From: Phycisphaerales bacterium
GTDB taxonomy: Bacteria; Planctomycetota; Phycisphaerae; Phycisphaerales; SM1A02
Reading direction: 5' to 3'
NCBI GenBank assembly: GCA_022446965.1
Contig: JAKVBV010000010.1
Location: 1-64,000 of the forward strand
Length of the DNA stretch: 64,000 bases
Below are positions 3,360 through 64,000 of this stretch, piece by piece; positions within the stretch are counted from its first letter, which is position 1, and each line of letters opens with the position of its first letter. The notes below the pieces were generated by a model. The model searched no databases, was not told where the DNA came from, and worked only from the letters and a program-made list of their open reading frames with translations. Position numbers and translations under genes: made by a program.

Positions 3360-4688
3360 TCAGACGGCGGCGGTGCCTACTGCTGCCTTGACCGACGCCT
3401 CGAAGCGGTTGAGCAGTTCATCCGCTTCATCGGTGGTCATGGTCAACGGCAGGCGGAAACGCACGGAGTCGTCGCCGCACGGCAACGCGATCACCTTGCG
3501 GTTGAAGAGCTCGCTGAGCACGGCACCACGTTGCTCGCCATCGGCGAACGAACACGCCAGCAATGAACCCATGCCACGCACGTTGGTGTAGCCATCTGTG
3601 TCGGCAGCGATGCGGCGCATGCCGGCCTTCACATGCTCGCCCAGTGCAGCGGTGGCCGCCATGAGGTTGTCTTCGATGATGATCTCGATGAAGCGACGAC
3701 TGCGGACCATGTCCACCAGGTTGCCGCCCCATGTGGAGTTGATGCGACTTGACGTGCGAAACACGTTTGCCTCGATCTCGTTGACTCGGCTGCCGGCATA
3801 CATGCCGCACACCTGCGACTTCTTTCCGAAGGCCACCACATCCGGGGCCACACCATGGTGCTGCCAGAGCCAGGGCTTGCCCGAGCCGAAGAAACCCGTC
3901 TGCACTTCGTCGAAGCACAGCAGGCATTCGTGGGTGTCGGCATAGTCACGCAGCTTCTGCATGAACTCAGGGCGGAAGTGGTTGTCGCCACCTTCGCCCT
4001 GCATGGGCTCGATCAGAATTGCGGCCACCTTGCTGTCACCGCTGGTCAATGCCTGCTCGATTTCAGCACAGGCCTTCGCCTCTTCGGCCTCGATGTCATT
4101 GCAGATGTTGCCCTCGTGATCGAACACGCAGTATGGGTTGTGCACGCGGGGCCAGGGGAACTTGGGGAACAGGCCCACTTTGTCTGGCAGCGTGTTGGTC
4201 ACACTCATCGTGTAGCCACTGCGACCATGGAAGGCCTGCTTGAAGTGCAGAATGCTCAGGTCGGTGCAGTCGGCGAGGTAGTCGGTGCGACCCAACTTGC
4301 GGGCCTTCCAGTCGAAGGCCGCCTTCATGACGTTCTCAACCGCCAACGCGCCACCGGCCACCCAGAAGTGGTGATCAAAGCCAGCGGGTGATGCATGGGT
4401 GGCGAACGCCTCCACGAACTGCGCCATCTCGGCGGTGTAGACATCCGCGTTGGAGAGGTTGTGCTTGGCTGCCCGAGCCAGTGCTGCTTCAAACCCAGGC
4501 TCTTTGAAGCCAAGGTGGTTGTAGCCAAGGGGCCATGAGGCGAAGCAGGTGAAGGCGTCGAGGTACTGCTCGTTGGTCACGCCATCGTGAATCCAGCATC
4601 CCTGAGACTTCTCAAGATCGACGACGAGTGGGTACCCATCGACCAGTTGGTGGCGGGCAAGATTGGCAAGAACCTCTGATGGCTGCAT
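3360..4688 (-). CDS. lat: L-lysine 6-aminotransferase (lysine-epsilon aminotransferase)
   Basis: 442 residues of a class III PLP-dependent aminotransferase. The start at 4688 (MQPSEVLANL) is favoured by GGAGAAG about 7 nt upstream. Family hallmarks are LCFDEVQTGFFGSG (D260 contacts the pyridine nitrogen) and AFGKKSQVCGMYAG, with the PLP lysine at K289 or K290. GWIHDG-type and ASWPLGYNHLGF segments match lysine-epsilon aminotransferases rather than ornithine or GABA enzymes. The reaction moves the epsilon-amino group of lysine to 2-oxoglutarate, giving aminoadipate semialdehyde / piperideine-6-carboxylate. No aminoadipate-semialdehyde dehydrogenase is adjacent. The gene converges on the prepilin gene with one base between stops and is divergent from the GspE gene. 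Confidence 0.88.
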   Translation of the reverse strand: MQPSEVLANLARHQLVDGYPLVVDLEKSQGCWIHDGVTNEQYLDAFTCFASWPLGYNHLGFKEPGFEAALARAAKHNLSNADVYTAEMAQFVEAFATHASPAGFDHHFWVAGGALAVENVMKAAFDWKARKLGRTDYLADCTDLSILHFKQAFHGRSGYTMSVTNTLPDKVGLFPKFPWPRVHNPYCVFDHEGNICNDIEAEEAKACAEIEQALTSGDSKVAAILIEPMQGEGGDNHFRPEFMQKLRDYADTHECLLCFDEVQTGFFGSGKPWLWQHHGVAPDVVAFGKKSQVCGMYAGSRVNEIEANVFRTSSRINSTWGGNLVDMVRSRRFIEIIIEDNLMAATAALGEHVKAGMRRIAADTDGYTNVRGMGSLLACSFADGEQRGAVLSELFNRKVIALPCGDDSVRFRLPLTMTTDEADELLNRFEASVKAAVGTAAV

Positions 4689-4795: not shown

Positions 4796-6388
4796 ATGGG
4801 AATGGACGCATTGCTGCTGGATTCAGGTGCTGTCACGGCTGATCAGGTCGAGCAGGCCCGAATCGAGAGCGACCGCACCGGCGAACGGCTTGATCAGGCC
4901 CTGATCCGGATGGGGCTGGTGTCCGCCCGAACCGTGCTCGAGGCCCTTGCAAGCCAATTGGCGATGGACATCGTCGATCTGGCGGACTACGAGCCCCCGC
5001 CAGAGGTCACGGCCATGATCCCCTCACGGCAGGTGTTTCGGCTGCAGTGCGTGCCCATCGCTGACGACGGCGTTCGCCTCCGGCTGGCCACCAGCGACCC
5101 CCTGCAACTGGCCGAACTCGACGAACTCCGCGTGCTCACCGGTCGAGAGATTGATCTGGTGCTTGCCGACGACGAAGACCTCCGTGGGCTGATCCGCCGC
5201 CACTACGGCGTGGCCGGCGACACGCTCGAGGCGCTCGGCGGTGATGACGATGACGTCCAGACCACTGTCGATCCAGCCGAAGATCAGGCCCAAGAAGCCA
5301 GCGTCATCAAGCTGGTGCGCGATCTGCTCATCGAAGCCATCCGTGAGCGGGCCACCGATGTGCACATCGAGCCCTACGAGCACAGCCTGGCGATTCGCTA
5401 TCGCATCGACGGCGTGCTCTCCCCTGCTGGCGTACCGCCCACCGTGAATCGATTCCGCGACGCCATCGTGTCGCGACTCAAGATCATGGCTGGTCTCAAC
5501 GTGGCCGAACATCGGCGGTCACAAGATGGTCGCATCGCCATGCGACACGACGGACGCATGTTCGACCTGCGTGTGTCCGTGATTCCCATGGTGCATGGCG
5601 AAGGCATCGTGCTTCGTCTGCTCGATGCCAGCGCCCCGTTGATCGGCCTTGAACAACTGGGCATGGAAGTTGACACGCTGCTGCGCTGGGACGATCTCAT
5701 CACTCGTCCGCATGGCATCCTGCTCGTCACCGGCCCCACCGGCTCGGGTAAATCGACCACGCTGTATGCCTCACTGAACCGCATCGTCAGCGACTCGGTG
5801 AAGGCGATCACGATCGAGGACCCGGTGGAGTATCAGTTGCCGGGTGTGAACCAGATTCCTGTGGCGCACGGCACGCTCGATTTCGCCGACGGCCTGCGAG
5901 CCGTGCTCCGCCACGACCCCGACATCGTGATGGTGGGTGAAATCCGCGACCGCGAGACCGCCGAAGCAGCGGTGCAGGCCTCCCTCACGGGCCACCTGGT
6001 CTTCAGCACCCTGCACACCAACGACTCGGCCTCGGCCATGCCCCGTCTCATGGACATGGGCGTGGAACCCTTCCTTGTGGCTTCCAGTGTGGAGGGCATC
6101 CTGGCCCAGCGACTGGTTCGCCGCATCTGCACGTCGTGCCAGGCCCCAGGCACTGGCTGCCGGGAGTGCCGGCAGACCGGATTCCATGGACGTCTTGGCC
6201 TGTACGAGTTGCTGGGCATGAACGCCGACATCCGAGATCTGATCCTGGAACGGGCGGCGGCCCCGGTACTGGCCTCGGCCGCCTTGCAGGCTGGTCTGTT
6301 GAGCCCCCTGGAGACCTCTGGCAAGGCCAAAGTCGAGGCCGGGCTGACCACCGAGCAGGAAGTGGCCCGGGTCACCAAGTCGCATTGA
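4796..6388 (+). CDS. gspE: GspE/PilB-family secretion or pilus assembly ATPase
   Basis: 530 residues. The N-terminal 150 residues resemble the GspE/MshE N domain (LLLDSGAVTADQVEQA... with a second half ending near AGDTLEALGG). The ATPase core has Walker A GPTGSGKST at about 312-320, followed by the Asp box (ITIEDPVEYQ) and Walker B region IVMVGEIRDRETAEAAVQA with the STLHTND His box. A zinc-binding module C-T-S-C...C-R-E-C lies near 444-457, typical of PilB/GspE rather than PilT. The protein powers pseudopilus or type IV pilus assembly at the inner membrane. No other gsp/pil genes are adjacent, but two prepilin-like genes and a giant secretin gene lie elsewhere in the window. A second Met at codon 3 is an alternative start. 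Confidence 0.93.
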   Translation: MGMDALLLDSGAVTADQVEQARIESDRTGERLDQALIRMGLVSARTVLEALASQLAMDIVDLADYEPPPEVTAMIPSRQVFRLQCVPIADDGVRLRLATSDPLQLAELDELRVLTGREIDLVLADDEDLRGLIRRHYGVAGDTLEALGGDDDDVQTTVDPAEDQAQEASVIKLVRDLLIEAIRERATDVHIEPYEHSLAIRYRIDGVLSPAGVPPTVNRFRDAIVSRLKIMAGLNVAEHRRSQDGRIAMRHDGRMFDLRVSVIPMVHGEGIVLRLLDASAPLIGLEQLGMEVDTLLRWDDLITRPHGILLVTGPTGSGKSTTLYASLNRIVSDSVKAITIEDPVEYQLPGVNQIPVAHGTLDFADGLRAVLRHDPDIVMVGEIRDRETAEAAVQASLTGHLVFSTLHTNDSASAMPRLMDMGVEPFLVASSVEGILAQRLVRRICTSCQAPGTGCRECRQTGFHGRLGLYELLGMNADIRDLILERAAAPVLASAALQAGLLSPLETSGKAKVEAGLTTEQEVARVTKSH

Positions 6389-7911: not shown

Positions 7912-8955
7912 ATGGGACGCTCCCGCACGCTCGCTCGGAATCTCGCCGAGTACGTGCCTGCACGCCTGATGGCCTCAGTCGCGAGGTGTTTTTCACCACA
8001 GCGCAATCAAGCCACTGCCGATGTCGCTGCCAAGGTGTACGCGGCGGCGTGTCCCACACGTACCGCCCGAGCAAAGCACAACATCATGCAGTCGTGGCCA
8101 GAGCTCACCGAGCAACAGGCCCATGCCAGAGCCGTGGCCTCCACGCAGTATCTTTTTCGCCTTGCACTCGTTGATGCGATCGCGATGGACAGGTTCATTC
8201 AACCCAACTGCTGGTGGAAGCACGTCGACATGTCCGATGTCGCGCCGGCGGTGGATGTACTGCACGGCGACAAGCCAACCATTCTGCTCACTGGCCACAT
8301 GGGCAACTGGGAGCTGCTGGGCTACACGCTGTCGATGCTGGGCCTCAAGCTCAACGCCCTGGCGCGGCCACTGAACAACGAACTGATGAACCGCTGGCTG
8401 CTGGGCATTCGCCAGTCGTGGGGCATGCGCATCATCACCAAGTTCGGGGCCGCTCCTGAGATGCAGGCCATCCTTGAACGCGGTGAACATCTGGCATTCA
8501 TCGCTGATCAGAATGCCGGCCCCCGCGGTGTCTTCGTGCCCTTCTTTGGCCGTCTCGCCTCCGCCTACAAGTCGATCGGGCTGCTGGCGATCACGCAGAA
8601 CATACCCATCGTTGTGGCCGGTGCCTTTCGCACCGGGCCTGGCGTGCAGTACCACGCCCATGTTCAGGAGGTGATCACTCCCGACATGTGGGCCGACAAG
8701 GACAACCCGCTCTACTGGGTGACCGCCCGGTACACCTGGGCGCTCGAACAGCTCGTCCGCCGATATCCCGAGCAGTACCTGTGGATTCACCGCCGCTGGA
8801 AGAGCCGCCCGCCTCACGAAGACAAGGGCAAGTCCATGCCCGCCGGGCTGGAACGGCGCATTCGGTCACTCGACTGGCTCAGTGATGCAGACCACGATGC
8901 CATCATCAATCGCTCCTTGAGCGCTGCAGGCGTGCTGCGGCATGAGGCCGCCTGA
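7912..8955 (+). CDS. LpxL/HtrB-family lysophospholipid (lipid A late) acyltransferase
   Basis: 347 residues. The family's catalytic H-x4-E motif is present as GHMGNWELLG near residue 129. Other conserved blocks follow: FIADQNAGPRGVFVPFFG, PIVVAGAFRTGP, and the C-terminal PEQYLWIHRRWKSRPP, the latter being nearly diagnostic for this family. Family members transfer acyl chains from acyl-ACP to lipid A precursors or related lipids at the inner membrane. Whether the substrate here is lipid A or another planctomycete lipid is not shown. The gene starts 29 bases after the coiled-coil gene and its stop is followed within one base by the receiver-domain gene, so co-transcription is likely. No obvious N-terminal transmembrane segment beyond a weakly hydrophobic start. 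Confidence 0.9.
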   Translation: MGRSRTLARNLAEYVPARLMASVARCFSPQRNQATADVAAKVYAAACPTRTARAKHNIMQSWPELTEQQAHARAVASTQYLFRLALVDAIAMDRFIQPNCWWKHVDMSDVAPAVDVLHGDKPTILLTGHMGNWELLGYTLSMLGLKLNALARPLNNELMNRWLLGIRQSWGMRIITKFGAAPEMQAILERGEHLAFIADQNAGPRGVFVPFFGRLASAYKSIGLLAITQNIPIVVAGAFRTGPGVQYHAHVQEVITPDMWADKDNPLYWVTARYTWALEQLVRRYPEQYLWIHRRWKSRPPHEDKGKSMPAGLERRIRSLDWLSDADHDAIINRSLSAAGVLRHEAA

Positions 8956-53214: not shown

Positions 53215-54960
53215 TCAGACACCGCCGTAAGGCGTGGCCGCCATCTGCTCCATCGCCTTGACCCACGTGATCCAGTCGGCCAGATCCGTCTGAAGGCGGA
53301 ACTGCTCGGCGTGGTCGTCAGCCGAGCCCACCATGTCGATCACCACCTCGCCCGTGTTGGGCATCTTGGGTGGCATCATCACACGTGCAGGACCAGCCGA
53401 GGCCAGGATGCCGGGGTACACCTGCTGCACCACCGCGGACATGTCCATGGACACCGCCCATGTGGGGCCTGCGTACGCCTCAGCCAACGCACCCTCGAGG
53501 GCAGGGTTGGCGTGGCCATGTCCGGCGAGATGGCTCGCCGTGGACAGCACCGAAGGATCATTGCCGACTGCTGACGTGATCAGGTTGCCGCTGACCATGT
53601 AGTGCGCGTCGATCGAATCGCCGCCGAAGAGCACCTTCATGAACTGATCCATCTGGGCCATGGGATCTTCACCCTGAGCCTTGGCCATGTCCATGAGTGA
53701 AGCCACACCGAAAGCATCCATCAGCTTTGCCATCTGCAGCGTGATCTTCACACCGAAGCCGCCGCCACGAGCTGGCAGCGGTGCCGTATCGATGCCCCAA
53801 TCGGCATCACCGATCGCATTGATCGCAGCCTTGGCATTGGCGATCGCGGCACGGCCATTGCGCACGTCTGCAGCCTGCACACACTTGAAGCCGGTCTTGT
53901 CGTCGAAGGCGACCGCCCCTGCAATACCGTTGTCAATGTCATCGATGCACTTCTCCCACAACGGCATCATGGCCGCCATGGCCTGTGCCACCTGCGGGGG
54001 ATACGCCTCGGCGTTCGACTCCAAGGACATCTGCATGGTGGACTCGATCGTGCTCTTGCCCATCACGAACTGCACCGGGTAATCGCCGGGCACCCGCTGG
54101 GCGAGGGCCCGCATGGCCTCCGCATCGCCAGGCGTGGACCGCTGGAAGGGTGCCTGTTCACCGAGCTCGTACTGCGCCAGTAGATCAAGATCGGTGCCGT
54201 CGAAATCGATACCGATGCTCCAGTCGGAGAAGCTGTGCAGCAGCATCTCAACCTGTTCCATCTGCATGGCCTGGACACGCGCCATGGCTTCGGCCACATC
54301 CTTCGACATGTTGCCCTGCTGCGCCGCCATCTTGGACATGTCGTCCATCATCTGCAGCATCTGATGGATCTCGGTCTCGTAGGCAGCCACGACCGCTTCC
54401 TGATCGATCGCGATTGAGATGTCGGCACCAAAGAGATGGTCCATCAGATCATGTGAATCAGCGCCGGCGGCATGGCCTGCATTGCTGAAACACACGTAGT
54501 TGCTGCCGGGCAGATGCGTCACATCCATGCCACCGAGCATGCCGTAGGGCGCCGGAATCACCTTGGCGGCGTTGTCAGCCGACATGATGATGGACATGGC
54601 GGGCATGCCAACTTCGTGGTTCGTCGGACCAAAGGCCACCGCCATGGGCTTGTCCATGTGGAAGGATGCCGGTGGTGCCGGACGACCATCCTGAGCTTCA
54701 CCGATGGTGGCCAACTGTTGGAAGAGGAACGGGGCCATCATGAGGCCCTGTGAGGCTGCAGGATCAACCTTGCTCGAGATCGTCATGATCTCCTGCAGCA
54801 TGTGGTTGAATGAGGGGATGTAGACGACACCCCAAGCGCCCTCTGGCACCAGGCGGCCCATGGCCTCGGGGGCGTTGGCTGGAGCAAAATCGCCAGCGAA
54901 ACAGGTGGCGGTCAGCGTGGTGGCTGCCACGGTGGACAGCATGGTGGTTTTGAACGGCAT
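53215..54960 (-). CDS. large secreted protein of unknown function
   Basis: 581 residues from the ATG at 54960, preceded by AAGGGAG at good spacing; a longer frame is not needed. The signal peptide is MLSTVAATTLTATCFAGD-like, beginning MPFKTT. The mature chain opens with RLVPEGAWGVVYIPSFNHML, resembling DUF3352-type or planctomycete secreted proteins whose start reads 'lP.da..vv.v.s...l'. It is rich in Met/Gln helices (MQMEQVEMLLHSFSDW), with no catalytic motif or anchor. It faces tRNA-Gln, which lies on the opposite strand. The role is unknown. Confidence 0.7.
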   Translation of the reverse strand: MPFKTTMLSTVAATTLTATCFAGDFAPANAPEAMGRLVPEGAWGVVYIPSFNHMLQEIMTISSKVDPAASQGLMMAPFLFQQLATIGEAQDGRPAPPASFHMDKPMAVAFGPTNHEVGMPAMSIIMSADNAAKVIPAPYGMLGGMDVTHLPGSNYVCFSNAGHAAGADSHDLMDHLFGADISIAIDQEAVVAAYETEIHQMLQMMDDMSKMAAQQGNMSKDVAEAMARVQAMQMEQVEMLLHSFSDWSIGIDFDGTDLDLLAQYELGEQAPFQRSTPGDAEAMRALAQRVPGDYPVQFVMGKSTIESTMQMSLESNAEAYPPQVAQAMAAMMPLWEKCIDDIDNGIAGAVAFDDKTGFKCVQAADVRNGRAAIANAKAAINAIGDADWGIDTAPLPARGGGFGVKITLQMAKLMDAFGVASLMDMAKAQGEDPMAQMDQFMKVLFGGDSIDAHYMVSGNLITSAVGNDPSVLSTASHLAGHGHANPALEGALAEAYAGPTWAVSMDMSAVVQQVYPGILASAGPARVMMPPKMPNTGEVVIDMVGSADDHAEQFRLQTDLADWITWVKAMEQMAATPYGGV

Positions 54961-55050
54961 GAGACTCCCTTTCCGTAAACGCCTGAACACCGACCGCCCA
55001 TCGGGCGAAGCCGGTTCCCACAGTCTATTGGGATCTCGCTCGAGCGTGTT

Positions 55051-55608
55051 TCAGCCCACCGGCCCCACCCGCACAAGGCGTTGGTCCTGCGTGGGCATGA
55101 TCGCCGGAGCCCCATTGGCAGGCTGAAAGCCCGTAAGCAGGTTGGCCGAAGCAGGTTGCATCCCCTTGGCAGCCTCTCCTAGATCCAGCTCGAAGCGGTA
55201 GCCAGGCAGGCCGAACATGGTTGGACCTTCTGCCTTGCGGCCCGCGTCGGGGCCGAACACCCAGGCCCCGAGGGGCGAACCATCGCCGCCGTCAGCTTCG
55301 ACCTCGACCAGCTCGAAAGCGAAGGTGCCATCGGCGAACACGGGATCGGGGCTGTTGTCATCAAACAACAGGGCCGACACCTCCACCCGATCGCCAAAGC
55401 CATCGGCATTCGTGTCCCGCGTGACGGACGACACGATCACGGCCACCCGAGTGGGTGCGTCTACCCGCTTGAGGCTTGTGGTCACAGGTTCCGGCCGAGG
55501 GATTGGTCGTCGATCTGCTGCGTACCCGTCAGGACGCCGCGTGCCGGAATCCATCTGACACGACACAATCGCCGGCACAAGGGCCAGAACCAGAACGCGG
55601 GTGATCAC
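55051..55608 (-). CDS. putative lipoprotein coupled to the giant secretin
   Basis: 185 residues. The signal peptide MITRVLVLALVPAIVSC ends in a lipobox-like AIVSC, so the mature N-terminus is C17 and it would be lipidated. The central part (TRVAVIVSSVTRDTNADGFG, DRVEVSALLFDD) has a beta-sandwich-like pattern with an embedded DTNADGFGD calcium-loop-like segment. Its start overlaps the secretin stop by four bases, implying coordinated synthesis. A pilotin or accessory role for the secretin is plausible by location; no pilotin family is recognised. Confidence 0.7.
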   Translation of the reverse strand: MITRVLVLALVPAIVSCQMDSGTRRPDGYAADRRPIPRPEPVTTSLKRVDAPTRVAVIVSSVTRDTNADGFGDRVEVSALLFDDNSPDPVFADGTFAFELVEVEADGGDGSPLGAWVFGPDAGRKAEGPTMFGLPGYRFELDLGEAAKGMQPASANLLTGFQPANGAPAIMPTQDQRLVRVGPVG

Positions 55609-58600
55609 TCGTCAGCCTCGTCGAAGGACCGAAGTTCAAGACGGCCATTCTCTCGTGTGAACAAACTCTGTCGCTTGATCTCACCACTGCGAACCTGATC
55701 CGCGATGTCTTCGGGCAGGTTGAGTCGCCCCACTTCGCCGTTGGTCATCGACCGGACGCGATCGAGATCAGCCGGGCTGCGCACCACATGCGGTGTGATG
55801 ACGATCACCAGTTCGTTGCGAACAAAGTCGAGGTTCTCACTGCGGAAGAGCGGGCCGAACAAGGGCAGATCGCCCAGCACCGGCACCTTCTCTTCGAAGT
55901 GCTCGTAGTTCTCGTTGATAAGCCCGCCGATGACCACGGTCTGGCCGTCATGCACGGTGATCGTGGTGTCGGCGGTGCGCTGCAGAATGCGTGGTGAGGT
56001 TACACCAACCGCCGGCTCGTCACGCTCGGACAGCAGCTTGGACAGCGTCGGCTGCACATCAAGACGCACGTAGCCATCGGGGTTGATGGACGGCGTGACC
56101 ACAAGGCTCACACCGACATCCTTCTCTTCCAACGGCACGCTCACCACACCGGTGTCGTAGGTCTGCGCCCCTTGCGCGACGTAGATCAGTTCACCCACAT
56201 TGATCGTGGCCTGCTCATTGTTCGCCGCCATCACCGATGGATTGCTCAGGATGTGCAGACGCCCCTGTGATTCCAGCGCCCGCAGCACGAGCGAGAAGTC
56301 GGCCGAACCCAGTGCCAGTGTGGGCACACCCAATGCGCCGAGAATCGGCGACGTGTTCCCCGCCGGCAGCGAGAAGCCCGATGATGCCGTCGCACCACCG
56401 ATGGGACCACCGGAGAATTCAACGCCCCAGTTCACGCCGCCATCGAGTGAGACTTCAGCCAGCAGCACCTGGATCAGTACCTGCGGCGGATCCACGTCGA
56501 GCGCGTCGATCATGTCGCGAACGCGTTCCATGTACCTCGGGCTGGCCGACACCAACACGGAGTTCGACTTGGAATCACCGCGAATGGTGACTTCGCGTTC
56601 GAGCATTCGGGCTGCGGAGCCAAGTTGCTCCACACCGAGTGTCTCAATCAGTGTGCGCTGTTCCTGCTCGACAAAATCGCCGAGCACCTGCGCCACTTCT
56701 TCGGCCGTGGCATTGCGCAATTGGTAGACGAGCGTCTCTCGCTCGTTGGCCTCTTGTGAATCGAGCGAATCAACCACCTGTTCGACAAGGTCGAGATAGG
56801 CGGGCGAGCCAGACACCAACAGGCTGTTCGTGCGTGTGTCCACGGTGATCGCAAGCTGCTGCCGCGGATCGGGCACTGCCGTGAGCTCCGTGCCACCGAT
56901 ACCACCATCGCCCATGTCCGGTGCGGGGGCACCTTCGAGGGCTGGGCCGGCGGATGGCACCTGCGTGTCACGCGGCTTGAGCACGAGAAGATCCTGGCCT
57001 TCGTCGAGACGGAAGAGGTCACGCAGAATGGCCCGTGTGGCCGTGGCGTCAGCGTTCTTCAGCGTGAACACCCGCATGCTCTTGGAGCCTGTCGATGTTT
57101 CATCGAGATCGCGAATCATGTCCACCAGCATCTGCATGGAGTCGCCCGGGGCACGAATGATCACGGTGTTCGTACGAATGTCCGGCGTGAGATTGATCGT
57201 CTCTCGCAAGGCCGTGGTGATGGCCATCTCGGCACTCTCGTCACCTTGCGCCGCTTCACGCACGTATCGCAGCACAGTGGACCGAGCCTGACGCGACCGC
57301 GACCGTGCCATGCTGCGACCAGCGAGCACGTCTTCAATCAGACTGACCGTCTCGATCGCATTGGCGCTGCTCAGGGGCACGTGGCGGATCTCGAGGATGT
57401 CGGCAGGCGACGTGCCTTCGAGACGCTCGACAAGATCACGAATCTCCTCGACATCACGCGGCGGCGCGTTGACGAGAATCGAATTCAGATTGCGGTCGGC
57501 CGACACCATCACGGTGCCCTGCCCACGGCTGCGGTTCGCCTCGCGAACGTACAGATCCTGCAGCAGGCGTTCGACTTCGTCAGCCTGCCCCAGACTCAGG
57601 GGGATCACCGCCACTTCGCGGCCGTCACCCACGTCATCGCCGGCGGCGATGAGCATGTCGAGCAGGTCTTCGATGACCACGAGATTCTCGTCGCTCGCCG
57701 ACACGATCAACGCATTGATCGATGCCTCGTACTGCACCGTCACGCGATCGGAAGGCATGGACGAATCGCCTAAGCTGCGGCTGCGCTCCTGCATCAACTG
57801 CTGGATACGCGGAGCCAGCTGCTCCGCATTGGCCCCGCTCGCCACCGGCAGCACGTGCAGGCCCACCGCTGGGTCGATGTCAACGGTGTCCAATCGGGCA
57901 ACCAGGTCACGGATGGCTTCCAAATCCTCGGGGGCTGCGGTCACCAACAGGCTGTCGCTCCGGGTATCCACTTGAATCAGCGGCATCATGCGACGTCGCT
58001 CGGACCCGGGAAGGTCGGCATAGCGGCGTTCCATCACCCGGCGGATGGTCTCAGCCAGTCGTGGCGCACTGCTTGAGCCGGTGTCGATCACTTCGACGAG
58101 CGCGCTGTTGAGATAGCTGGCGCGATCGAGATCATCCAGCATGCTCTCGATGACTTCAAAACCACCGGCACCAGCCGCCACCATCAACGTGTTGGACACG
58201 TCGTCCGGGATCACCACCACACGCTCGAGTGCCCACGTCTGCGGTTCGAGTACACGGAGACGCTCGGCGCGGGCGTCCATCATGCGCTGCACGATTGAGG
58301 CCACACGGGATGCCGATGCGTTCTGCAACTGGATCGACCGGATCTCCTGGAAGGCGATCGCTTCGTCGGAATCAAGTTGCTCCAGCAGACCCTCGACAAT
58401 GTCGAACACCTTGGCGCTGCCCGACACGACCATCGCGTTGGTCCGAGCATCTGACTGTATCACCGCTGCATCCTGCGGATCGAGTGAGCCGCTGCGCAGT
58501 TGCGCCTGCAGCAGACCATTGACCATGTTCGCCAACTGCCCCGCCGTGGCATGCTCGACCGGATACACCCGCACGGCGGCCGATGGAGACGCGGCTTCGA

Positions 58601-61600
58601 CATCGAGCATCTCGATCAGATCATGCGCCACCTGAATGTTCACGGTCGAGCCCACGATCACCAGCGACTCGATCGCCGGCTGGGGTACGAACGTCAACCC
58701 ATGCATGGGCTGGAAGAGCTGCGAATCGCCGCCGTTGAACTGCAGGCGGCCCACTTGTGTCTGTAGGTGCGATGCATTGGGAAGATCCGTGGCGCCTTCC
58801 ACGAGCACACGGTGCAGCGTGGCGGCCAGATCACCCGGATCGGCCCACTTGAGAGGGATCACCTTCACCTCAACCGTGCCTGTAGCGACATCGCTGTCGA
58901 GTCGTTCGACGAGCACTTCCACGGCCGCGACGGCGTCTTCGCGACCAGCCACAACCACCGTGTTGGTGCGTTCGTCAATGGACAGGGCAACCTCGTCCAG
59001 CAGCGCCGGACCGATCACGCCGGTGGGCATGCCGAAGATGTTGGTGCCCGGCAACTGAGCCAGGTCCTTGCTCTGATCGAACACTTCACGAGCGATCCGC
59101 TGGAAGTCGGCGGCGGGCATGTTCTTCAAGGGCAGCATGCGAATCACAGCTGCACCAGCCACGGGCATCGAATCAAGCAGGCCAACCAGCGCCTCGATGG
59201 CGAGGACATTGGCAGTGGTCGATGTCACCACGAGGGCATTCTGTGTGTCATGCGGCACGATGCGAATGGGCTGCGTGAGATCCACTCCCACGTTGCCCAA
59301 TCCAATGCCTTCGTGACGCAGATCCAGCGTACGCACCTGATGTTCAAGCGCTCGCGCCAGTTCGGTGCTGGACTGCTGGTCGGAGGGATCAAGCATCTCT
59401 CCAAGCACATCTGCCATGTCTTGGGCCGAGGTGAACTCCAGCTGGATGATCTGCATCGTGCCGACGGCCCCCTGCGGTGCCACGTCCATGGCCTTGAGGA
59501 TGTCGACCACCGTGCTGGTGTCGGCAGGGTTGCTCATCAACATCACGGCATTTCGACCAGTGACGTGCGTCAACTGCACGGGCTCGTTCACGAGTCGCGC
59601 CATCGAATTGGCACGAGGCGGGTCGTCCAGCCCAAGTGCTTCGATCACGCGAATCGCCTCGGTTGGGGCGATGTGCTGCAGATCAATGATGGTGACGCCA
59701 TGACCACTGGGCGGTGCCATGGTGTCCAACTCGGCTGCCGTGGCACGAATCTCGTCAATCAGCGATGCGCTGGTGGCCACGATCAAGCTGTTGGTCATTG
59801 CATCGTGCTCGATGGACAGCGGTACACGCAGTTGTTCAGCTCGCGGCTTGAACGTGCGCGACAGGGTCTGCGCGACGCGGGTCACGGGCGAATCTTCGAG
59901 CGTCACCACATGCACCTGCACGTCGACACTGGTGTTGGGCTGATCAAGCGATTCCACGATCGCTTCAATCCGCGACAGCATGGTGCCGGTGGCGGCCACG
60001 ATCACCGAGTTGGTGACGGGTTCAGCCGAGGCACTCACCCACTCTTCACTCTGCACGAGCATCGTGGGTGCATCCGCTTCACGATCGTCGCCCGACGGCT
60101 TGCGATTGGGCTTGCCACCACCACGAGCGACTTCGCGACTGAACGCTTCGTTGATCGCACGGGCGACCGACTGTGCTTCGGCGTGAGACAACGGCAGCAC
60201 ACGCACCTGCAGCGACGCGTCGTAGGCTTCGTTGTCCAGTTCCTGCACCAGTGCTTCGATTCCTTCCCACTCGCTTTCTTCCGCACTCACCACCAGTGAG
60301 TTGGTCGAGGGGTCAGCCACGATGCTCACGCTCACCTTGGACGGCGTGTCGGCCTCGAGTGCAAACGGGCCGTAGAACACTGTCAGTGCTTGACGCACCT
60401 TGTCGGCTTCGGCGTGCTCGAGCTTCAGGAATCGTGTTTCTCGGGTGCGGGTTCGCGGCCTATCGAGCTCTTGAATGAGCGACAACATCTGCTCGTACTG
60501 GGGTACCGTCGCGGCGATGATGAGCTGGTTTTCGGCACGATTCACATCCACCTGAGGACGTGGGTAGTCAAACGCCATGGTCATCTGCTGCAGATTCCAG
60601 CGGAGGTCCTCAGCGATCGCATGCTCCAGCGACACGATGTGGTACTCGACCTCGGCCACGGTCGGCACACTGTCGAGCCCGTTGATGATGCCCTGGAGCA
60701 CCGGCATCGACTCAGGGCTGCCTGTCACGATGAGGCTGTTAGAACGGTTGTCGGCCACAATGCGGGCGCGAACTTCCACGGGATCGCCGCCATCCTCGGG
60801 CGTGATGACCGTCCCTGATGTCTCACCGTTCTGGTCGAGGCCCAGGGCGCCGGCGAGGACGTTGACCACGTTGTCGGCCCGGGCGTCGGTCAAGGCAAAC
60901 GTACGTATCACGTTGCGGTCACCAACCGCATAGGTGTCGAGCACCTCCAGCAGCGCGGTGATTTCCGCGTGCTGCTGGGCATTGCCCGCCACGATGAGCA
61001 CGCGATGGGCCTCGTCCAATCGGACGACAGGTGCTGTTTCATCCTGATTGTCCCACCACCGGCGGCGACTGGTGCCGTACAACTCGGACACCATCTCCTC
61101 GACGTTCTGCATTGACGTTCCCGCCACGTGATACGTCTTCACCGTGCGAAGCGAACCAGCCGGTGTATCTGAGTCGATGACCGCGACAACTTCTTCGACC
61201 ACATCGAATGTCTCGCCATGGCCGGTGACGACCAGCGCGTTCAATCGCGTGTCAGGGAACACCGCCACGCGACCGGGCAATTGTCCGCCACCTCGCCCAC
61301 GACCCATCCAATTGCCGAAGACCTGCGTGCCGTAGGCCAGCTGCATCACCATGTTCTGCACGGTGTTTGATACGTCTTCAGCCTTGGCATGCTGCAACGG
61401 GAAGGCGCGAATCTGCAGTTGCTCGTGATCCTTGGGGCTGTCCAATCGAGTAGCCAACTCCTGCACGGCCTGGAAGTCTTCATCGGACGCAGCCACCATG
61501 ATGGTGCTGTCGCCCCACTCGCCGATCACTGTCACGGCGCGGCGAGTGCGATCAAGACGGGCGCGGTCGTCGTACAGGCGCTGAATCGCACTGGCCACCT

Positions 61601-64000
61601 GACCGGCGTCGGCGCGTTCCAGCACGATCGTGCGGACCGACTTGTTGGTGCTCGAGCCTGCCGGCGCGATAGCACGGATGACATCGGCCACCGCAGCAAA
61701 GTCGTGATCGGTACAGGTGACAAACAGCGCCTTACCGGCCGGATCAGGGACCACGACAACGCGTTTGGACAGGTCGCCACGCGCACCGCCGGCCGGTGTC
61801 ATGCTGCCGAGGGCCTGCGTGAGCAATGTAGCCAGGCGTGCCGGATCGTGATTCTCGCCCAAGTCGATGCGGCGCAGGCGGCCTGCGGGCGAGGGCGATT
61901 GCTGCACAAGTTGATCGAGCAGGGCACGGGCGCGACGCACGGCACGATCACCACCCAACAACACCAACGAATTGGTATCCGGATCGACGGCGATGGACAC
62001 ACTGGGCACGCTCGCATCAGCGCCAATGGCCGAGGCCGACAACACCCACAGGACACCATGCATCGGCGTTGCGTGCGATGTCTTTTCCGGCCCGTCCTGA
62101 TCGAGCAGGTCTTCGAGTTCGATGATCTCCACGCTGGAGCTGTCGTTCTGCAACAGCAGCCGTTGCAGTGCTGCGGCCAGTTCATCGGCCTGTACGCGGG
62201 ATGGATCAACCGGCACCACTTCGAGTCGGCGTCCTGATGTCAGGGCAGCGGCATCGATCTCGGAGACCACGGCACGCAGACGATCGAGCTGATCCGCGTC
62301 ACCACGCACAAGCAGCGAATTGCTTGCCCGGTCGACCTGAATCACTGGCGCAGTCGTGCTGCCAGACTCGGCAAGCAATGGCTGCAGCGTTTGCGCCAAG
62401 GCCGTGGCGTCGGCGTGACGCACGGGAACAACCTGCAATGCACTGGCCTGCTGGGCCGATGCATCGGCAACGTCGAGTTGCTTCACGAGCGCCTCGGCCA
62501 CCGGCAACACGCCAGGACGAGCCACGATCACCACGGCGTTGAGCCGGGTATCGGCAGCCACCTTCACGGCCTGCCGCGCCTCGGGCAATGCCACGCGGCG
62601 CCGGGCCGCTTCGATGCGCTGTTGCAGCGTGTAGTGCTCGCCGCCCATCAGAGTTTCAACCACTGGTGCGATGCGCTCTGCACTGGCATGCTCGAGAACC
62701 ACGGTGCGCACCTGATTCGTTTCGGCCGACACACCTTCGTCAAGCGACGAAATCACGGTCATGATGTCGTCGAGTTCACGCACGGGACCGGTAAGCACCA
62801 CGGTATTGCTGGCCGGTTCGGCAGACACCGTCACACGGCGTGCCGCCGGTGCGAAGCGTGATTTGGCAGTGAGCGCCGTTTGCGCCGCGGCGACCACGTT
62901 GGTGGCGTCGGCCCGCGACAGCTGCACCACTCGTGTTTCGATGGCGCCGGTGTCCGATGCGGGGCGGTCCAGCTCGGTGACTAGTGTGCGGGCCAGCGGC
63001 ATGAGTTCGGTAGGCCCATTGACTATCAGGCGCCCGGATTGCTGGTCCGCCACGACGGTTGGGTTGGGCACGGCCATGCCTGCGGCGGAGGCTTGACGCA
63101 ATGACTGCGGCCAACGCGCACGGTCACGCAACATGCCGGACACGGCCGTGGCCAGCACAGCAGGGTCGCCATTGGTGACGTCGAGAATCTCGAGCGTTGT
63201 CGTGGGCGGCAACGGTGTCTGTTCATCGCGATCGCGGAGCAACGCGATCACCTGCGCCACCTCGTCTTCGGGGCCCGACACAAGCACGGCGTGCATCGAT
63301 GCATCGGGCAACACTTCGATCTGGTCTCCACCAGACTCGATCGCGCCGGCTCGGATCAACGATCGGATGTTGGCGGCCAAGGTGTTGGGATGAGACCGGA
63401 GCGGTTCGAAGACATCGACAATGGTCTCCACCTGCGTGGCGGCGTCGAGCTGTCCCAGCAATTGCGCCATGCGGGCCACACCACTCTGGGGTCCGGTCAG
63501 CAAGGTGGTGCCGTCAGCGGCCGGATCCACATCGACCTCGGCCACGAGCTCGCCACCGAGCACGCGAGCACGCTCGATGACGGTCTCCAGGCCCTCTGAA
63601 TGCAGTTCGACGACCTTGACGTCCGCCATCTCGCGGGCGTTGGCGTCGAGCGTGGGCACCATGGCTCGCACGCTCTGCACCTCTGAAGCGGGCCCGGACA
63701 GCAGGATGCTGCGGCCATCGGGGCCTGCGGCCATCCGCACCAGCGTGCGGCTGCTTTGGGGCAGCACCTCATTGAGCGCTGCCAGAACGGCCCCGGCGGA
63801 GGCCTTGTCCAGCATGACCGACTCGATGACTCGCTCGCCAGAGGCCACCGCACCGCCTTCGAGGGCGGAAATGATGGAGGCCATCTGTTCCACTCGGCGC
63901 GGACTGCCGGTCACACCCACGGCCGACTGCTCGGGCATGGGCACGAGTACGGGCCGCTCGCCTTCTGGCATCGTCGCGATCACACCATTGAGCCGCTGCA
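55605..64000 (-). CDS. giant secretin (GspD/PilQ-like) with about 30 Secretin_N-type repeats, 5' end beyond window
   Basis: At least 2,797 residues; the frame is open to the window edge, so the N-terminus and any signal peptide are outside. The C-terminal about 260 residues form a normal secretin pore domain: PPQVLIQVLLAEVSLDGGVNW-type start, NPSVMAANNEQATINVGE, the phrase DVGVSLVVTPSINPDGYVRL, VVIGGLINENYEHFEEKVP, then VLGDLPLFGPLFR and ELVIVITPHVV. Before it come about 30 tandem N domains of about 80 residues, each with a first half like V..L.HA.A..V...I and a second half like TNSLVVSG....L..I..LV..LD. GspD normally has N0 plus three such domains in about 650-700 residues. It should form an outer-membrane export channel. 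Confidence 0.92.
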   Translation of the reverse strand, partial: QRLNGVIATMPEGERPVLVPMPEQSAVGVTGSPRRVEQMASIISALEGGAVASGERVIESVMLDKASAGAVLAALNEVLPQSSRTLVRMAAGPDGRSILLSGPASEVQSVRAMVPTLDANAREMADVKVVELHSEGLETVIERARVLGGELVAEVDVDPAADGTTLLTGPQSGVARMAQLLGQLDAATQVETIVDVFEPLRSHPNTLAANIRSLIRAGAIESGGDQIEVLPDASMHAVLVSGPEDEVAQVIALLRDRDEQTPLPPTTTLEILDVTNGDPAVLATAVSGMLRDRARWPQSLRQASAAGMAVPNPTVVADQQSGRLIVNGPTELMPLARTLVTELDRPASDTGAIETRVVQLSRADATNVVAAAQTALTAKSRFAPAARRVTVSAEPASNTVVLTGPVRELDDIMTVISSLDEGVSAETNQVRTVVLEHASAERIAPVVETLMGGEHYTLQQRIEAARRRVALPEARQAVKVAADTRLNAVVIVARPGVLPVAEALVKQLDVADASAQQASALQVVPVRHADATALAQTLQPLLAESGSTTAPVIQVDRASNSLLVRGDADQLDRLRAVVSEIDAAALTSGRRLEVVPVDPSRVQADELAAALQRLLLQNDSSSVEIIELEDLLDQDGPEKTSHATPMHGVLWVLSASAIGADASVPSVSIAVDPDTNSLVLLGGDRAVRRARALLDQLVQQSPSPAGRLRRIDLGENHDPARLATLLTQALGSMTPAGGARGDLSKRVVVVPDPAGKALFVTCTDHDFAAVADVIRAIAPAGSSTNKSVRTIVLERADAGQVASAIQRLYDDRARLDRTRRAVTVIGEWGDSTIMVAASDEDFQAVQELATRLDSPKDHEQLQIRAFPLQHAKAEDVSNTVQNMVMQLAYGTQVFGNWMGRGRGGGQLPGRVAVFPDTRLNALVVTGHGETFDVVEEVVAVIDSDTPAGSLRTVKTYHVAGTSMQNVEEMVSELYGTSRRRWWDNQDETAPVVRLDEAHRVLIVAGNAQQHAEITALLEVLDTYAVGDRNVIRTFALTDARADNVVNVLAGALGLDQNGETSGTVITPEDGGDPVEVRARIVADNRSNSLIVTGSPESMPVLQGIINGLDSVPTVAEVEYHIVSLEHAIAEDLRWNLQQMTMAFDYPRPQVDVNRAENQLIIAATVPQYEQMLSLIQELDRPRTRTRETRFLKLEHAEADKVRQALTVFYGPFALEADTPSKVSVSIVADPSTNSLVVSAEESEWEGIEALVQELDNEAYDASLQVRVLPLSHAEAQSVARAINEAFSREVARGGGKPNRKPSGDDREADAPTMLVQSEEWVSASAEPVTNSVIVAATGTMLSRIEAIVESLDQPNTSVDVQVHVVTLEDSPVTRVAQTLSRTFKPRAEQLRVPLSIEHDAMTNSLIVATSASLIDEIRATAAELDTMAPPSGHGVTIIDLQHIAPTEAIRVIEALGLDDPPRANSMARLVNEPVQLTHVTGRNAVMLMSNPADTSTVVDILKAMDVAPQGAVGTMQIIQLEFTSAQDMADVLGEMLDPSDQQSSTELARALEHQVRTLDLRHEGIGLGNVGVDLTQPIRIVPHDTQNALVVTSTTANVLAIEALVGLLDSMPVAGAAVIRMLPLKNMPAADFQRIAREVFDQSKDLAQLPGTNIFGMPTGVIGPALLDEVALSIDERTNTVVVAGREDAVAAVEVLVERLDSDVATGTVEVKVIPLKWADPGDLAATLHRVLVEGATDLPNASHLQTQVGRLQFNGGDSQLFQPMHGLTFVPQPAIESLVIVGSTVNIQVAHDLIEMLDVEAASPSAAVRVYPVEHATAGQLANMVNGLLQAQLRSGSLDPQDAAVIQSDARTNAMVVSGSAKVFDIVEGLLEQLDSDEAIAFQEIRSIQLQNASASRVASIVQRMMDARAERLRVLEPQTWALERVVVIPDDVSNTLMVAAGAGGFEVIESMLDDLDRASYLNSALVEVIDTGSSSAPRLAETIRRVMERRYADLPGSERRRMMPLIQVDTRSDSLLVTAAPEDLEAIRDLVARLDTVDIDPAVGLHVLPVASGANAEQLAPRIQQLMQERSRSLGDSSMPSDRVTVQYEASINALIVSASDENLVVIEDLLDMLIAAGDDVGDGREVAVIPLSLGQADEVERLLQDLYVREANRSRGQGTVMVSADRNLNSILVNAPPRDVEEIRDLVERLEGTSPADILEIRHVPLSSANAIETVSLIEDVLAGRSMARSRSRQARSTVLRYVREAAQGDESAEMAITTALRETINLTPDIRTNTVIIRAPGDSMQMLVDMIRDLDETSTGSKSMRVFTLKNADATATRAILRDLFRLDEGQDLLVLKPRDTQVPSAGPALEGAPAPDMGDGGIGGTELTAVPDPRQQLAITVDTRTNSLLVSGSPAYLDLVEQVVDSLDSQEANERETLVYQLRNATAEEVAQVLGDFVEQEQRTLIETLGVEQLGSAARMLEREVTIRGDSKSNSVLVSASPRYMERVRDMIDALDVDPPQVLIQVLLAEVSLDGGVNWGVEFSGGPIGGATASSGFSLPAGNTSPILGALGVPTLALGSADFSLVLRALESQGRLHILSNPSVMAANNEQATINVGELIYVAQGAQTYDTGVVSVPLEEKDVGVSLVVTPSINPDGYVRLDVQPTLSKLLSERDEPAVGVTSPRILQRTADTTITVHDGQTVVIGGLINENYEHFEEKVPVLGDLPLFGPLFRSENLDFVRNELVIVITPHVVRSPADLDRVRSMTNGEVGRLNLPEDIADQVRSGEIKRQSLFTRENGRLELRSFDEADE
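56500..64000 (-). repeat. tandem array of Secretin_N-like domain repeats
   Basis: Repeats are recognised by the phrase T/S-N-S/T-hydrophobic3-x-G/A followed about 15 residues later by L-D. Examples: SNSVLVSASPRYMERV (about 56,521-56,570), TNSLLVSGSPAYLD (about 56,790-56,832), INALIVSASDENL, TNAMVVSGSAKVF, SNSLIVTGSPESM, and SNTVVLTGPVREL. Counting by eye gives about 30 up to the edge. The copies are diverged in protein and DNA, so this is an old expansion rather than recent slippage. Confidence 0.88.

Follow-up and report, generated by a model that had tools for sequence, protein, structure and literature searches.

The question raised by this locus is whether a reading frame that joins a secretin pore to some thirty N-type domains encodes a true secretin and, if so, to which machine it belongs and what the repeated domains build. 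The secretins of well-studied bacteria carry three to five stacked-ring modules. In the window, that is, the whole stretch of 64,000 nucleotides that was analysed (contig positions 1-64000, on a contig that reaches 74,250), the frame runs for 2,797 codons from 55605 and is still open at the window end. Extension of the contig upstream, a check proposed with the original prediction, brings the frame to its end: the whole gene lies at contig 55605-64916 on the minus strand, with an ATG at contig 64916 that is preceded by AAGGAG, and it encodes a product of 3,103 aa (333 kDa, pI 4.6). The gene and its parts are the following:

55605 to 64000, minus strand: in-window part of the giant secretin gene (gspD-like), the C-terminal 2,797 of 3,103 codons
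55779 to 56279, minus strand: secretin pore domain PF00263 (E 3.8e-49 in the genome search; E 3.6e-47 in Pfam, over the cut-off)
56481 to 63818, minus strand: in-window part of the array of N1-type domains (Secretin_N, PF03958), from PF03958, a repeat HMM and the fold prediction of residues 2185-2730
contig 64062 to 64800, minus strand: N0 and the first N1 domains of the giant secretin, beyond the window

From the N- to the C-terminus the protein consists of a signal peptide (MAGRLRAVLCVAGVIFGMQAVALA, read by eye), N0, about 32 N1-type (Secretin_N) domains and the secretin pore. The Secretin_N profile, the application of which to the repeats had also been proposed, matches with an E-value of 4e-250 in 27 separate stretches in the Pfam search and gives 28 matches within the frame in the genome search, while an HMM built from the giant's own repeats finds 30 domains. 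Two extra N1-type units lie beyond those of this HMM, at residues ~141-199 (a PF03958 match) and 430-490 (by eye), which brings the total to about 32, and the predicted secretin with about 30 N-type domains and a C-terminal pore is thereby confirmed. N0 is matched by the GspD N0 model PF21305 at E 7.7e-5, slightly under the curated cut-off, and residues 43-222 match N0-N1 of the solved XcpQ/GspD structures (phmmer, E 2.5e-6). The GspD model TIGR02517 gives 893.9 bits against a cut-off of 351.35, a sum that is swollen by the repeats and whose best stretch covers model positions 128-599. Membership of the type III secretion system (T3SS) and PilQ secretins was rejected, given that both models score below that of GspD. 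With its parts in the order of GspD, the giant is a true secretin and not a new kind; given that it has about 32 N1-type domains and not the usual three of GspD (N1-N3), it is filed as a GspD variant. The same genome holds two other secretins of ordinary size, with frames of 950 and 675 aa.

The reading that we prefer, with a probability of roughly 60%, is that the giant is the GspD of a type II secretion system (T2SS) with a greatly lengthened periplasmic channel. The periplasmic part of GspD would have been lengthened about tenfold through duplication of its N1 ring-building domains. The N0 ring would dock at the inner membrane on the PilP/GspC-like domain of the GspM/PilO-like protein encoded upstream, the ~32 N1-type domains of 12-15 protomers would form stacked rings that make up a long tube, and the C-terminal secretin domain would be the gated outer-membrane pore. 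With the GspD of T2SS (TIGR02517; PDB 5wln, 6hcg, 5wq7) the giant shares the signal peptide, N0, N1-type domains and pore, an operon with GspF, GspK and GspL- and GspM-like genes, and the linker length of ordinary secretins. It differs in the ~32 N1-type domains instead of three, in an internal signal-like segment, in the split-domain two-gene forms found among its relatives, and in an operon that lacks GspE and where GspM seems to be fused to a PilP/GspC-like domain.

Whether the repeats stack was approached from their fold, spacing and conservation. An AlphaFold2 monomer model of residues 2185-2730, made with an alignment of 48 sequences, predicts six consecutive beta-alpha-beta-beta-alpha units with cores of pLDDT above 90, and all 30 of its PDB matches at E <= 0.001 are secretin structures; the six repeats modelled are predicted to have the N1 (ring-building) fold, with an uncertain orientation between units (pTM 0.37). 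The linkers between the N domains of 51 giants have a median of 8 residues over 1,936 junctions, 92% of them within 2 of 8, and those of 16 ordinary secretins have a median of 7, all within 2 of 8, whereas the loops inside the N domains of the giants are very variable in length. Linkers of constant and ordinary length together with variable intradomain loops favour a regular stack over a flexible string.

The original prediction had also held that the repeats are conserved and under selection, which the comparison with relatives substantiates. Most repeats of the window giant map in order onto those of family relatives, as collinear orthologues, and a block of ~15 repeats and some smaller blocks that are present in relatives are missing from this genome's giant. 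A comparison of two genomes from the same genus gives a dN of 0.096 and a dS of 0.71 for the repeats, against 0.090 and 0.73 for the pore (dN/dS of ~0.135 and ~0.12, respectively), and dN is lower than dS in 45 of the 45 repeats tested. Judged by these ratios, purifying selection on the repeats is as strong as that on the pore. Within the window giant, the mean identity between repeats is ~26% and neighbouring repeats are no more alike than distant ones, indicating that the array is old. In the relative L036, repeats 25, 30 and 37 have a mutual identity of at least 80% and are recent block copies, which points to growth by in-frame block duplication. L036 (genome G044), with 6,169 aa and 63 N1-type domains, is the largest secretin found here; since some of its repeats are nearly identical, it may contain an assembly error.

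The main rival to a tube is a tether, where the last few N domains alone would form rings and the rest would be a flexible string of beads, or a brush that spans the peptidoglycan, between the pore and the inner membrane. The low pTM of the six-repeat model, the widely varying length of the intradomain loops and the difficulty of fitting a rigid tube of 100 nm into a normal periplasm speak for it, but the linkers match those of ring-stacked secretins in shortness and constancy, most repeats are kept in their own position under pore-like purifying selection, and the breaks inside a domain that are seen in two-gene forms (see below) require both chains to meet exactly. A tether is for these reasons doubtful, and the stacked-ring tube is favoured given the position-wise orthology, the selection, the predicted N1 fold and the near-constant linkers. 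The stacked-ring conduit that had been proposed from the sequence is thus strengthened as regards the fold of the repeats tested and their short, constant linkers, and the stacking itself keeps its conditional form.

The layers of GspD, of ~2.5 nm, represent the lower end of layer thickness. At ~2.5-4 nm per layer, as taken from Thermus PilQ and GspD, the tube of the giant would be roughly 80-130 nm long if each domain forms a layer, and that of the 63-domain giant would be 160-250 nm if every domain does so. To our knowledge, no known secretin comes near a tube length of 80-130 nm. The closest comparison is the PilQ of Thermus thermophilus, where six N rings and the pore measure 350 Å in all and which is described as one of the largest secretin systems characterised (PMC5745081). 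Like the giant it has extra N domains, which in PilQ form stacked rings and are said to span a wide periplasm; the giant has about five times as many domains and a T2SS-like operon.

Against a tube of this length, no envelope width is documented for Phycisphaerae that would match 80-130 nm. The suggested link with a deeply invaginated planctomycete periplasm is weak in this respect, that the best-documented invaginations are those of Planctomycetia, the secretins of which have mostly ~5-10 N-type domains, while giants are a feature typical of Phycisphaerae. The class Planctomycetia is where deep invaginations and crateriform complexes resembling press studs are documented (PMC5394234), and described isolates of Phycisphaerae are without crateriform envelope structures (PMC7783415, PMC8882080). 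The Planctomycetia secretins (Pirellula, Gemmataceae and others; L083-L120) share with the giant the phylum, a related pore and a raised number of N domains, and differ from it in their smaller domain number, their size of 1,000-2,300 aa and their separate clade in the pore tree.

The assignment to T2SS draws on the neighbouring genes. Upstream of the giant, on the same strand, lie genes for GspF (PF00482, E 4.9e-51), GspH-like and GspJ-like pseudopilins, GspK (PF03934, E 1.4e-6), and GspL-like and GspM-like proteins, the GspL/M and GspH/I/J matches being weak; a GspI-like start, MSRRGALLLETLVALAIVVGVGAF, was read by eye among them. The GspM/PilO-like gene adjoins the giant immediately upstream and encodes a protein with a single membrane helix, a part akin to PilO/GspM, a linker rich in proline and, at the C-terminus, a small beta domain resembling PilP/GspC, an arrangement that is the same in 13 loci. 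Its predicted structure (pLDDT 79.9) matches PilO (3jc8_O, E 7e-4; 2rjz, rmsd 1.9), and the C-terminal beta domain of the model matches PilP (3jc8_P, probability 0.97, E 0.075). By sequence the matches of this domain are weak, with GspC at E 0.21 and with T2SSB (E 2.6e-4) and T2SSC (E 0.018) each in one of 13 members. A PDB search with the HR-like alignment returned mainly designed propeller proteins through a short spurious match, and the structural comparison was preferred. Given that the N0 end of secretins is bound by the HR domain of GspC in T2SS and by PilP, the protein encoded by this gene is likely the inner-membrane dock of the giant.

These same genes bear on the possibility that the giant is a secretin of a type IV pilus or of DNA uptake and not of T2SS. 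The upstream gene is PilO-like, PilM-like matches occur, and GspE is absent from the giant's operon, the genome profile search having found 10 PF00437 matches elsewhere in the genome. Nonetheless, the 893.9 bits for GspD stand against 334.5 for the PilQ model, the N0 domain is of the GspD kind, and GspF, GspK and pseudopilin-like genes lie nearby, and we consider this assignment unlikely. The presence of GspE in the T2SS operon is usual, not universal. A PilB/GspE-like ATPase with an MshEN domain is encoded on the same contig at window 4796-6388 (plus strand), far from the operon of the giant, and is a possible motor.

Behind the giant, the T2SS reading of which is retained, two further genes lie on the same strand:

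55051 to 55608, minus strand: 185-aa protein with a lipobox (IVSC), a candidate lipoprotein, overlapping the 3' end of the giant gene
53215 to 54990, minus strand: 591-aa protein with no family match, behind the giant and the candidate lipoprotein, a putative operon member only

The 185-aa protein is possibly a pilotin; it has no family match in Pfam and other profile models, and homologues beside a giant were found only in L024 and L029. Elsewhere in the window, at 7912-8955 (plus strand), lies a gene of the lipid A acyltransferase family (PF03279), consistent with an outer membrane with lipopolysaccharide.

In some relatives the channel is encoded by two neighbouring genes, namely in L038/L070, L102, L077 and L064, which belong to a group of 16 rows in the pore tree, and in L045/L047 of the Phycisphaerales. 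The first gene, read whole in L038, encodes a signal peptide and N0 and no pore; the second encodes its own signal peptide, N1 domains and the pore, and no N0. Wherever both sides could be read by eye (L038, L070, L064, L102, L045 and L047), the break falls inside an N1 domain, with beta-alpha ending the first chain and beta-beta-alpha opening the second after the signal peptide. The broken domain differs between the two groups of giants. The corresponding features of the window giant are these:

61908 to 62195, minus strand: N1 domain 'repeat 9' (residues 908-1003), which in L045/L047 is divided over two genes and which here has a long loop
62013 to 62063, minus strand: signal-peptide-like hydrophobic segment MHGVLWVLSASAIGADA, in the loop of the 'repeat 9' domain

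This segment is the most hydrophobic loop of the window giant, with a value of 1.93 on an 11-residue scale, the 99th percentile over all loops scanned being 1.78. The unsplit giants of the Phycisphaerales have, in this same domain, a long loop with a hydrophobic and often alanine-rich stretch of ~10-14 residues that ends in one or more small residues, with polar or acidic residues after them, in the manner of a signal peptide. In most of them it is the most hydrophobic loop of the protein, and in L023, L024, L043, L048, L054 and L116 it was found by eye or as a lower-ranked loop. The unsplit proteins of the 16-row group have similar segments at their own group's break site, which are clear in L031, L039 and L074 and weaker in others. 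Given that L045/L047 nest within the unsplit Phycisphaerales in the pore tree, their break probably came about where a signal-like segment was already present.

The simplest reading that this suggests is a tube of two segments that share one domain; in Phycisphaerales the segments would probably meet inside one N1 domain, and the signal-like loop would be either cleaved or a relic of a two-gene state. An internal translation start for the C-terminal half is not favoured, since no consistent start codon or Shine-Dalgarno sequence was seen by eye near the segment. In its fullest form, which we put forward as tentative, the proposal is of a trans-envelope tube of ~100-200 nm, the longest secretin known, where two segments complete one N1 domain in trans, made in Phycisphaerales from one precursor cut at the internal site and from two genes in other lineages. 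A natural test of domain stacking is offered by the breaks inside one domain, and the segment may represent, in a bacterium, the processing of a precursor at an internal site.

The segment could also be a hydrophobic gate or a membrane-touching loop in the tube and neither a signal sequence nor its relic, which would be compatible with the main explanation. Its hydrophobicity is kept across the unsplit Phycisphaerales giants while its sequence varies, and in Thermus PilQ a second gate is formed by long loops (PMC5745081). This function is nonetheless improbable, because in L045/L047 two genes meet at this site and an N-terminal signal peptide follows, as is seen at another domain in the second group of giants, and because the segment is short, with its small residue followed by polar or acidic ones as in signal peptides.

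An artefact of assembly or annotation was rejected as extremely improbable, given that, although the source genome is a draft of 112 contigs, the frames are closed at both ends in 20 relatives, single-contig genomes among them, the repeats are collinear with and orthologous to those of relatives, and copies that are diverged to ~26% mutual identity and have no long DNA repeats in common make repeat collapse or expansion in the assembly unlikely.

The lengthened GspD is not confined to this genome, and a search of Phycisphaerae genomes, as had been proposed, found further giants. Among 198 sampled genomes of the class, a pore frame of at least 2,300 aa occurs in at least 47 and one of 1,556-1,843 aa in at least 14, lower bounds given that the counts were made by hand among ~150 matches listed; the latter size is typical of the two-gene form, and some may be cuts at contig ends. 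Twenty giants were fetched whole with complete frames, 19 of them unsplit (3,294-6,169 aa, 31-63 N1-type domains) and one, L038, of two genes. Named contigs with giants come from throughout Phycisphaerae and from several Verrucomicrobiota MAGs (frames of 3,025-4,311 aa). In Verrucomicrobiota the giants are patchy, given that among the matches listed from a sample of 145 genomes none was found outside the centre genome. In the pore tree, one group of giants has 49 rows, with Phycisphaerales, other Phycisphaerae and Verrucomicrobiota (support 80/87), and the second has the 16 rows mentioned above (support 100/99), with the Planctomycetia falling apart from the giants. One or two origins of the giants are both compatible with this tree, given that its root is not fixed.

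No earlier description of giant secretins in planctomycetes was found in the open-licence literature, where an earlier mention is possible, and the same holds for the number of N domains, for the two-gene forms with a split domain and for the signal-like segment inside the protein. A survey of huge proteins notes planctomycetes and makes no mention of secretins (PMC11573180). Chains with 30-63 ring-building domains break the assumed size limit of secretins, and they raise the questions of how wide the envelope of these bacteria is and how a substrate or pseudopilus travels ~100 nm. The natural series of lengths, with ~5-10, 21-51 and 63 domains, lends itself to probing a role as ruler or conduit.

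Several minor observations concern individual relatives. The genomes G470-G474, G476 and G477, with a giant on Verrucomicrobiota-like contigs, also have a secretin frame of ~410-470 aa with a pore score close to that of the giants. The contig of L056, labelled Leptolyngbya sp. PLA1 (a cyanobacterium), has a giant of the Phycisphaerales type and is probably a mislabelled or mis-binned MAG; the labels of lake MAG contigs assigned to Akkermansia muciniphila are also doubtful. In the Verrucomicrobiota giant L069 a single in-frame TAG interrupts the frame at 4350-4530, with no new signal peptide, and this was taken for a probable sequencing error or a broken gene and not for a true split. In a Planctomycetaceae contig (L088, 9029-15749), a frame of 2,240 aa near a secretin of 1,315 aa has 13-19 N-type domains and no pore match, and represents a pore-less array of N domains.
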